Positions 1 to 4,695 of a stretch of 36,046 nt of DNA are shown one piece after another. Under the pieces are notes generated by a model. It did no database searches, was not told the DNA's origin, and was given only the letters and a program-made list of their open reading frames with translations. The stretch is taken from the NCBI GenBank assembly GCA_003550425.1, contig PUKE01000239.1, forward strand, positions 1 through 36,046, read 5' to 3'. The stretch is from Nitriliruptoria bacterium. GTDB taxonomy: Bacteria; Actinomycetota; Nitriliruptoria; Euzebyales; Egibacteraceae. The position numbers and the translations under genes were made by a program. Each line of letters begins with the position of its first letter. Position 1 is the first letter of the stretch.

Positions 1-1235
1 CCGAGCGCCTCGGCGACGAGCTCGGAGTCCTCCATGCAGCGCAGCGCGTCGTCGAGGTTGCGCGGCAGCGACTGGATGCCCGCGGCGCGACGCTCCACCT
101 CGGTGAGCTCGAAGATGTTGTCGGTGGACTCCGGTGGCAGCTCGTAGCCCTTCTCGATGCCGCGCAGCCCCGCCGCGATCATGACCGAGAAGGCGAGGTA
201 GGGGTTGCAGGCCGGGTCGGGCGCGCGGAACTCCAGCCGCGCCGAGGCGGGCTTGTCAGGCTTGTACTGCGGCACCCGCACCAGCGCCGAGCGGTTGTAG
301 CGGCCCCACGAGATGAACACCGGCGCCTCGAAGGGAGCGGGCGGCTCGTAGGCGACCAGCCGCTTGTAGGAGTTCACCCACTGGCAGCACACCGCGGCGA
401 TCTCGCGCGCGTGGACGAGCAGCCCGGCGGTGAACTGCTTGGCGACGTCGGACATGCGGTAGCGGTCGCGGTCGTCGTAGAAGGCGTTGGTGTCGCCCTC
501 GAACAGCGACAGGTGGGTGTGCATGCCGCTGCCGGGCTGATCCGCGAGGGGCTTGGGCATGAAGGTCGCGTAGACGCCCCGGTGCATGGCCGTCTCCTTG
601 ACCACCAGGCGGTAGGTCATGAGGTTGTCGGCCATCGTCAGCGCGTCGGCGTAGCGCAGGTCGATCTCGTGCTGGCTCGGGGCGATCTCGTGGTGGGAGT
701 ACTCGACGCTGATGCCCATCTGCTCGAGCGTCTGGATCACGCGGCGACGGAAGTCGCTCTGCACGTCCAGCGGGGTCAGGTCGAAGTAGCTGCCGCGGTC
801 CAGCGGCGTGGGGTCGTCGGGGCCCCGGAACAGGAAGAACTCCATCTCGGGGTGGACATAGAAGGTGAAGCCGAGCTCCGCGGCACGCGCGAGGTTGCGG
901 CGCAGCACGTGCCGCGGGTCGGCGGCGAAGGGCTGGCCCTCGGGCGTGCGGATGTCGCAGAACATCCGCGCCACCCCGGCGTCCTCCGGCCGCCAGGGCA
1001 GGACCTGGAAGGTGGAGGCGTCGGGGACCGCGAGCATGTCGGACTCCTGCACGCGCGCGAAGCCCTCCACCGCCGAGCCGTCGAAGCCGATGCCCTCGTT
1101 GAACGCCTGCTCCAGCTCGGAGCTGGTGATCGCCACGGACTTGAGCATCCCGAGGACGTCGGTGAACCACAGCCGCACGAAGCGGATGTCGCGCTCCTCG
1201 ACGGTGCGCAGCACGTACTCCTGCTGGCGGTCCAT
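1..1235 (-). CDS. glnA: Glutamine synthetase, type I (GlnA2-like), 3' end outside window
   Basis: Reverse-strand ATG at 1235 reads MDRQQEYVLRTVEERDIRFVRLWFTDVLGMLKSVAI...GIGFDGSAVEGFARVQESDM..., with HPEMEFFLF, SGMHTHLSL and NPYLAFSVMIAAGL downstream. Open to the window edge, so absent from the ORF track. Confidence 0.95.
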   Translation of the reverse strand, partial: MDRQQEYVLRTVEERDIRFVRLWFTDVLGMLKSVAITSSELEQAFNEGIGFDGSAVEGFARVQESDMLAVPDASTFQVLPWRPEDAGVARMFCDIRTPEGQPFAADPRHVLRRNLARAAELGFTFYVHPEMEFFLFRGPDDPTPLDRGSYFDLTPLDVQSDFRRRVIQTLEQMGISVEYSHHEIAPSQHEIDLRYADALTMADNLMTYRLVVKETAMHRGVYATFMPKPLADQPGSGMHTHLSLFEGDTNAFYDDRDRYRMSDVAKQFTAGLLVHAREIAAVCCQWVNSYKRLVAYEPPAPFEAPVFISWGRYNRSALVRVPQYKPDKPASARLEFRAPDPACNPYLAFSVMIAAGLRGIEKGYELPPESTDNIFELTEVERRAAGIQSLPRNLDDALRCMEDSELVAEAL

Positions 1236-1331: not shown

Positions 1332-2699
<1,368 letters not shown>

Positions 2700-2846
2700 C
2701 GAGCATCCTCCGCGTCGCAGCGTCGAGACCGACGGCGCGCCCCCGGCGCCCGCCGAGGCCTCTCCCGGTGGGGTCGGCCGCCCCGACCCGGCCACGTCCC
2801 AGCGACGCGACCCGTTCCGGGGCGAGGCGAACGGTAGGAAGGGGGC

Positions 2847-2884
2847 GTGTCCCCTCGGTCACCGACACGTTTCGAGCCGGTGAA
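2847..2884 (-). promoter_or_regulatory. Putative GlnR-type box: TTCAC-n6-GAAAC-n6-GTGAC-n6-GACAC (minus strand)
   Basis: Four half-sites with exact 11-bp spacing, resembling the actinobacterial gTnAC-n6-GaAAC consensus; candidate -10 TACCGT (plus ACGGTA 2831-2836) just downstream towards amt. Confidence 0.6.
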
Positions 2885-3039
2885 ACCTGCGGCTGCGGTC
2901 CACCGCCGACGCCGGCGCGATGCTCCCGGACGCCCTCGGGGCGCCCATGGGGGCGCCCACGGCAGGCCCGGCCCGCGCGTGCGACAGTTCCGCTCGCCGG
3001 GCGCGAGCGACCCGCCCAGCCGCGACCCTCGAGGAGCCC

Positions 3040-4695
3040 ATGCGATTGGCGCTGGCACAGCTGCACCCCCACGTCGGCGACCTCGACGGCAACGTCGAGC
3101 GCATCGCGCAGGCCTATGCGCAGGGCTGCGAGCGCGGCGCCGACCTGGTCTGCGCCCCCGAGCTGGCCGTGACCGGCTATCCCCCGGAGGACCTGCTGCG
3201 CAAGCCCGCGTTCACCGCCGCCAGCGAGGCGGCGGTGCACGACCTCGCGGCCCGCACCGGGGCGACGGCGCTCGTGGTCGGCTTCGTCGAGCCGGTCGGG
3301 GGCGCCGACGTGCGCACCCGCCCCGTCGCCGCGCTGCCGGGGCTGCCGCCCCTGGCCAACGCCGCCGCGGTGCTGCGCGAGGGCCGGGTGGAGCGGGTCT
3401 ACCGCAAGCAGCTCCTGCCCAACTACGGGGTCTTCGACGAGGCCCGCTACTTCCGCGCCGGCGTCGAGCCGGTGGTCGTGGACGTCGCGGGGGTGCCCGT
3501 CGGCGTGACGGTCTGCGAGGACCTGTGGGACGCCGCGGGGCCCGTGGCGGCCGCGCAGCAGGCGGGCGCGGCGCTGGTGGTCAACCTCAACGCGAGCCCC
3601 TACCACCGTGGCAAGCGCGCCGAGCGCGAGGCCTGGGCGCGCCACCACGCCGCCCGCGGCACGGCCATCGCCTACCTGAACGCCGTGGGGGGCCAGGACG
3701 AGGTCGTGTTCGACGGCGACTCGTTCGTGATGGATGCCGCGGGGCGCGTGCCCGCCCGCGGCGCGCAGCTGGCCACCGACCTCGTGGTGGCCGACGTGGA
3801 CGCGGGCGGCACGGTGGACCCAGCCGCGCCGCCCGCGCCGCGCCTGGAGCCGCTGGCCGAGACCTGGGCGGCGCTGGTCCGCGGCACCGGCGACTACGCG
3901 CGCAAGAACGGGTTCCCCGGCGCCCTCGTGGGCGTGTCCGGGGGGATCGACTCCGCGCTGACCGCGGCGATCGCGGTCGACGCGCTCGGCGCCGACGCCG
4001 TCACCTGCGTGGGCATGCCCTCCCCCATCTCCTCCGCGCACTCGCGGCGGGACGCGCGTGAGCTCGCCACCAACCTCGGCACGGGATGGTGGGAGCTGCC
4101 CATCGCGGCGCCGCTCTCAGCCTTCGAGCAGGTCCTGGCTCCCGCCTGGGAGGGTCACGACGCCGCGCTCGCGCACGAGAACCTGCAGTCGCGGATCCGC
4201 GGCACCCTGCTCATGAGCCTGTCCAACGCGCGCGGCGACCTGCTGCTGGCCACCGGCAACAAGAGCGAGTACGCGGTGGGCTACGCGACCCTGTATGGGG
4301 ACATGGCCGGCGGCTTCGCGGTGCTCAAGGACGTGCCCAAGCTGCTGGTCTATGAGCTCGCGCGCTATGCCAACGACGCCGCGGGCCGCGAGCGCATCCC
4401 AGAGTCCACCCTGACCAAGCCGCCGTCGGCCGAGCTGCGCCCCGACCAGCGCGACACCGACTCGCTGCCCGACTACGCCGAGCTGGACCCCATCCTCGAG
4501 GCCTACGTCGAGCAGGACCGCACCGTGGAGGAGATCGCCGCGGAGGGCTTCGACCCGCACGTGGTGGCGCGCATCTCGCGCTTGGTCGACCGCGCGGAGT
4601 ACAAGCGGCGACAGGCCGCGCCAGGGGTCAAGATCACGCCGCGAGCGTTCGGCAAGGACCGGCGCCTGCCGATCACGCAGGCCTGGACGCGCTGA
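3040..4695 (+). CDS. nadE: Glutamine-dependent NAD+ synthetase
   Basis: ATG 3040: MRLALAQLHPHVGDLDGNV...; nitrilase-like amidase half (APELAVTGYPPEDLL, VCEDLW) then NAD synthase half (VGVSGGIDSALTAAIAVDALG, LLATGNKSEYAVGYATLYGDMAGGFAVLKDVPK). Confidence 0.96.
   Translation: MRLALAQLHPHVGDLDGNVERIAQAYAQGCERGADLVCAPELAVTGYPPEDLLRKPAFTAASEAAVHDLAARTGATALVVGFVEPVGGADVRTRPVAALPGLPPLANAAAVLREGRVERVYRKQLLPNYGVFDEARYFRAGVEPVVVDVAGVPVGVTVCEDLWDAAGPVAAAQQAGAALVVNLNASPYHRGKRAEREAWARHHAARGTAIAYLNAVGGQDEVVFDGDSFVMDAAGRVPARGAQLATDLVVADVDAGGTVDPAAPPAPRLEPLAETWAALVRGTGDYARKNGFPGALVGVSGGIDSALTAAIAVDALGADAVTCVGMPSPISSAHSRRDARELATNLGTGWWELPIAAPLSAFEQVLAPAWEGHDAALAHENLQSRIRGTLLMSLSNARGDLLLATGNKSEYAVGYATLYGDMAGGFAVLKDVPKLLVYELARYANDAAGRERIPESTLTKPPSAELRPDQRDTDSLPDYAELDPILEAYVEQDRTVEEIAAEGFDPHVVARISRLVDRAEYKRRQAAPGVKITPRAFGKDRRLPITQAWTR

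Follow-up and report, generated by a model that had tools for sequence, protein, structure and literature searches.

A predicted GlnR operator upstream of amt at the divergent amt/nadE junction of a Nitriliruptoria genome

The closest described systems are the GlnR-dependent promoters of Streptomyces, including that of amtB, and the ald gene of A. mediterranei. The four-site GlnR consensus is gTnAc-n6-GaAAc-n6-GtnAC-n6-GAAAc, with half-sites in the order a-b-a-b (Tiffert et al. 2008, as cited in PMC10704036). The adenine at the fourth position of a half-site is essential for GlnR binding (PMC10704036, PMC3662644), and an AC-n9-AC core with essential adenines has been described as a feature of the bound DNA (PMC3662644). 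Here, we compare these systems with the junction of amt and nadE in one Nitriliruptoria genome, and with the same junction in its relatives.

The amt/nadE junction and its GlnR-like box

The window, i.e., the whole stretch of 36,046 nucleotides that was analysed, contains the following features.

3..1235, minus strand: glnA2-type glutamine synthetase, running off the window (TIGR00653, PF00120)
1332..2699, minus strand: amt, ammonium transporter (TIGR00836, 385 bits, above cut-off; PF00909)
2831..2836, minus strand: predicted amt -10, TACCGT, 10 nt downstream of the box, with TAnnnT at matching spacing in relatives
2847..2884, minus strand: predicted GlnR box, half-sites a1-b1-a2-b2, from sequence match and class conservation
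2884-2880, minus strand: half-site a1, TTCAC
2873-2869, minus strand: half-site b1, GAAAC
2862-2858, minus strand: half-site a2, GTGAC
2851-2847, minus strand: half-site b2, GACAC
2983..2988, plus strand: candidate nadE -10, GACAGT, within the block GTGCGACAGTT, which a two-species alignment shows to be conserved with the sister species
3040..4695, plus strand: nadE, glutamine-dependent NAD+ synthase with CN_hydrolase and NAD_synthase domains (NF010588, 682 bits, above cut-off; PF02540, PF00795)

Read directly from the window, minus-strand positions 2884-2847 are TTCAC-CGGCTC-GAAAC-GTGTCG-GTGAC-CGAGGG-GACAC, which matches 16 of the 18 specified bases of the published four-site consensus. Where a GlnR operator calls for at least two gTnAC/GaAAC half-sites separated by n6 (an 11-bp period), this box has four, and every one of them carries AC, with n9 between successive cores. 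The box lies upstream of amt and on the same strand, 147 bp from the amt start (2699) and 155 bp from the nadE start (3040), and the hexamer TACCGT at 2836-2831 follows it after 10 nt with no separate -35 element, the -35 position being covered by the box itself. These readings agree with the preliminary description, which had reported four 5-mers at six-nucleotide spacing (two matching fully, two with one mismatch each), distances of about 150 bp to both start codons and a -10-like TACCGT towards amt. That description was silent on the glnA2-type glutamine synthetase gene, which lies 96 bp beyond amt on the same strand; as the amt-glnA2 order is also kept in relatives, the two genes are probably co-transcribed.

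The regulator, its predicted sites and their conservation

The genome does encode a GlnR. The protein, on contig C150, scores 103 bits against the Pfam family GlnR_1st (PF21695; cut-off 27), also matches Trans_reg_C (PF00486) above cut-off, and is 55% identical over 218 residues to M. tuberculosis GlnR (query sequence checked against PDB chain 8hih_O), with the C-terminal DNA-binding domain best conserved; the second-best OmpR-type protein of the genome is 35% identical to the same query. GlnR orthologs were found in 42 of 49 class genomes, and the lack of a match in some box-bearing drafts (G033, G036, G045, G046, G048, G050) is perhaps due to draft incompleteness. The gene just downstream of glnR (L001 1000-1500) resembles an mshD-type acetyltransferase, with no Pfam match for the fragment of it that was searched; a glnR-mshD neighbourhood occurs in mycobacteria.

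In order to locate further sites, the whole genome was scanned by pattern search, using both a four-site pattern loosened to fit the box at 2847..2884 and an unfitted canonical three-site pattern. The box was the top match of the four-site scan, whose pattern had been fitted to it, and the three-site scan is therefore the fairer test. With at most one mismatch, the latter returned four matches: the box itself and sites on contigs C69, C321 and C351. The C69 match lies upstream of glnA, and the C321 match upstream of the P-II gene glnK, which is followed by a glnD-like reading frame. At both, NAnnnT stands exactly 10 nt past the fourth half-site (TAGGTT and GACGAT, respectively), as TACCGT does at the amt box. 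The predicted GlnR regulon of this genome includes amt(-glnA2), glnA and glnK-glnD. The C351 match, GTCAC-n6-GACAC-n6-GTCAC (G000:C351:17622-17648 (-), L011), has one mismatch to the three-site pattern and a poor fourth site, lies near a reading frame resembling a membrane metalloprotease, and is possibly a chance match.

Relatives were searched for loci with amt or nadE in 21 family genomes and 49 class genomes. Nearly all class genomes in which nadE and amt adjoin, about 40 genomes, have a box between the two divergent genes, and the 11-bp periodicity is conserved class-wide. The 20 half-site bases are the same in both species of the window's genus, and 9 of 18 spacer bases differ between them. 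Across 23 genera with a recognised amt -10, mean column information is 1.47 bits in the half-sites versus 0.28 in the spacers, and a1, b1 and a2 have A at the fourth position without exception. The consensus in the class tends towards TTTAC/GAAAC/GCAAC for family f1 and towards GAAAC/GAAAC/TCAAC/GAAAC for family f5. At the named Actinomycetota amt loci, a weak box (14/18) was seen in L013 only, and the rest reached at most 13/18.

The spacing from the box to the amt -10 is fixed. Of 43 genomes, 33 have TAnnnT on the amt strand at offset 10 and two have it at offset 11, and it occurs at none of the other offsets among the 69 scanned; the remaining eight have NAnnnT at offset 10, with GACAGT or GAGAGT occupying the amt -10 position in G037-G039. 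Two genomes bear on the same point. In G010, where amt has left the locus, its new site carries a 17/18 box and nadE has none, and in G011, which lacks amt at this locus, the box stays between nadE and glnA2. Because the -10 spacing is fixed, the distance to nadE drifts (see below) and the box follows amt or glnA2 in G010 and G011, we consider it tied to the amt/glnA2 promoter.

Two other accounts of the box fare poorly against this evidence. That it resembles a GlnR site by chance has a negligible probability: with up to three mismatches, the canonical four-site pattern occurs once in the window, at 2847..2884, and never in 100 dinucleotide shuffles, sites with at least 16/18 matches have an analytic expectation of 9e-5 per window (0.008 per genome), the box is kept across the class, and no point in favour of chance was found. 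PhoP and MtrA, OmpR-type regulators of 11-bp repeats, can overlap GlnR sites. Binding by MtrA or by PhoP, alone or in competition with GlnR, is nonetheless very improbable here, as the half-sites obey the GlnR a/b rules class-wide and the further top matches in the genome are glnA and glnK-glnD; the precedent for it is the amtB promoter of S. coelicolor, where PhoP binds between GlnR boxes (PMC10704036).

Very probably, the element is a GlnR operator from which amt is activated and, with it, glnA2, probably by read-through; nadE is probably not under its direct control in this genome. The part of the preliminary description that proposed GlnR control of amt is strongly supported by the presence of glnR, the class-wide box with its periodicity and the fixed -10 distance, and the part that proposed shared control of nadE is not supported as co-activation. 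Two of the outcomes that the description had named as counting against it, a genome lacking glnR and a periodicity lost in relatives, are thereby contradicted. Under nitrogen shortage, two GlnR dimers would bind head to tail on the four half-sites, and amt would be switched on. Bound GlnR would cover the -35 position and contact RNA polymerase at the -10 that starts 10 nt downstream, in class II activation, and transcripts reading through from amt would reach the glnA2-type glutamine synthetase gene. An activator box that ends 10 nt before the -10 and lies over the -35 is the class II arrangement of OmpR/PhoB-type regulators.

The nadE side of the junction

If nadE were regulated from the same box, a conserved distance between the two would be expected, and this distance instead ranges from 9 to 240 bp across relatives. 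A nadE-facing -10 at a fixed place exists only in part of the class and is absent in the window's genus. Among 35 genomes with a box-to-nadE distance of at most 100 bp, 24 have a nadE-facing TAnnnT, mostly TACGGT, on the amt side of the box, and 22 of these 24 have it at offset 20-21, the background being 0.2% per position. None of the eight long-distance genomes has it (Fisher p = 5e-4 versus the short-distance genomes, an optimistic value as the genomes are related), and six of these eight have TAnnnT 39-56 bp before the nadE start; no genome has both types of nadE -10. In class genomes such as G045, G050 and G054 (L136, L174, L148), the amt -10 TAGCGT faces the nadE -10 TACGGT at 5 bp, and the GlnR box falls within the predicted nadE leader.

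In relatives with the nadE-facing -10 on the far side of the box, the nadE transcript would run across the box, and repression by GlnR is therefore predicted rather than co-activation. For most of the class, these sequences are most simply read as a nadE promoter that faces the amt promoter and whose transcripts cross the box, so that GlnR should repress nadE.

The window and its sister species have neither the nadE-facing TAnnnT on the amt side nor a TAnnnT 39-56 bp before nadE. The best candidate for a nadE -10 in the window is, tentatively and from two genomes only, the GACAGT within GTGCGACAGTT, which lies 51 nt before the nadE start and about 100 bp from the box, a position comparable to that of TAGCGT elements in G037-G039 and G042. 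As the amt-side nadE -10 is gone and this candidate promoter is about 100 bp away, nadE is probably uncoupled from the box in this genome.

A second two-domain nadE paralog, 45% identical, is located at G000:C243:55820-57547, and several class members have one. No GlnR box was found upstream of the nadE paralogs. At nadE loci outside the class, a convincing box was absent except at L189 (genome G183, family f27), where nadE and the gene of a GlnII-like glutamine synthetase diverge from an interval with a GlnR-like box (TTCAC-n6-TTCAC-n6-GCAAC-n6-GAAAC, about 67 bp upstream of nadE, with GAGACT 10 nt later), a junction of nadE with a nitrogen gene similar to that of nadE with amt.

The preliminary description had suggested shared nitrogen control of nadE. 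Taken as activation of both amt and nadE by the same bound GlnR, this is improbable: besides its drifting distance, the box of many relatives is separated from the nadE start by 9-30 bp, which is impossible for an upstream activator site, a box is missing from nadE of G010 and from the nadE paralogs, and the nadE promoter predicted beside the box in relatives faces through it. On the other side, the box of this genome does lie halfway between the amt and nadE starts, and six divergent gene pairs are controlled by GlnR in M. smegmatis (PMC3662644). That GlnR activates amt and represses nadE in this genome too is somewhat less doubtful, though still unlikely; the 24 of 35 short-distance relatives with a nadE-facing TAnnnT on the amt side and the roadblock repression of ald by GlnR in A. 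mediterranei (PMC4140684) point to it, and the loss of that -10 in the window and sister species, where the GTGCGACAGTT block is the better promoter candidate, argues against it. For the class as a whole, a reciprocal arrangement has a reasonable, if less than even, chance of being correct. In most members, amt and nadE promoters would then be placed face to face, with -10 elements about 4-5 bp apart, and the box would serve amt as its activator site and lie at the very beginning of the nadE transcript. GlnR would turn amt on and nadE off in one event, and the window's genus would have lost this switch by moving its nadE promoter.

Comparison with described GlnR systems

Among the papers searched, none dealt with GlnR in this actinobacterial class and none linked GlnR to nadE in actinobacteria, and nadE is not among the targets named in the main text of a GlnR review and of two GlnR regulon papers. 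As a prediction from sequence, the present comparison adds a deep actinobacterial class to the range of the canonical regulon (amt-glnA2, glnA, glnK-glnD), with the box grammar unchanged and the -10 spacing fixed, and the class-wide comparison offers a connection of nitrogen status to NAD synthesis that can be tested.

As in the Streptomyces four-site element, the box is built a-b-a-b with n6 spacers, matches 16/18 bases and lies upstream of amt, and within this genome glnA and glnK share its consensus; three boxes are present at amtB of S. coelicolor (PMC5826061) versus two here. The ammonium transporter gene would be under GlnR-type control as in the Streptomyces amtB-glnK-glnD operon, whereas here amt is followed by glnA2, nadE is the divergent neighbour, and glnK-glnD is separate with a box of its own. 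The ald gene of A. mediterranei (PMC4140684) differs in being another target and in that the window's nadE promoter apparently lies outside the box, but the GlnR roadblock at its transcription start is a precedent for the repression that nadE of most relatives is predicted to undergo.
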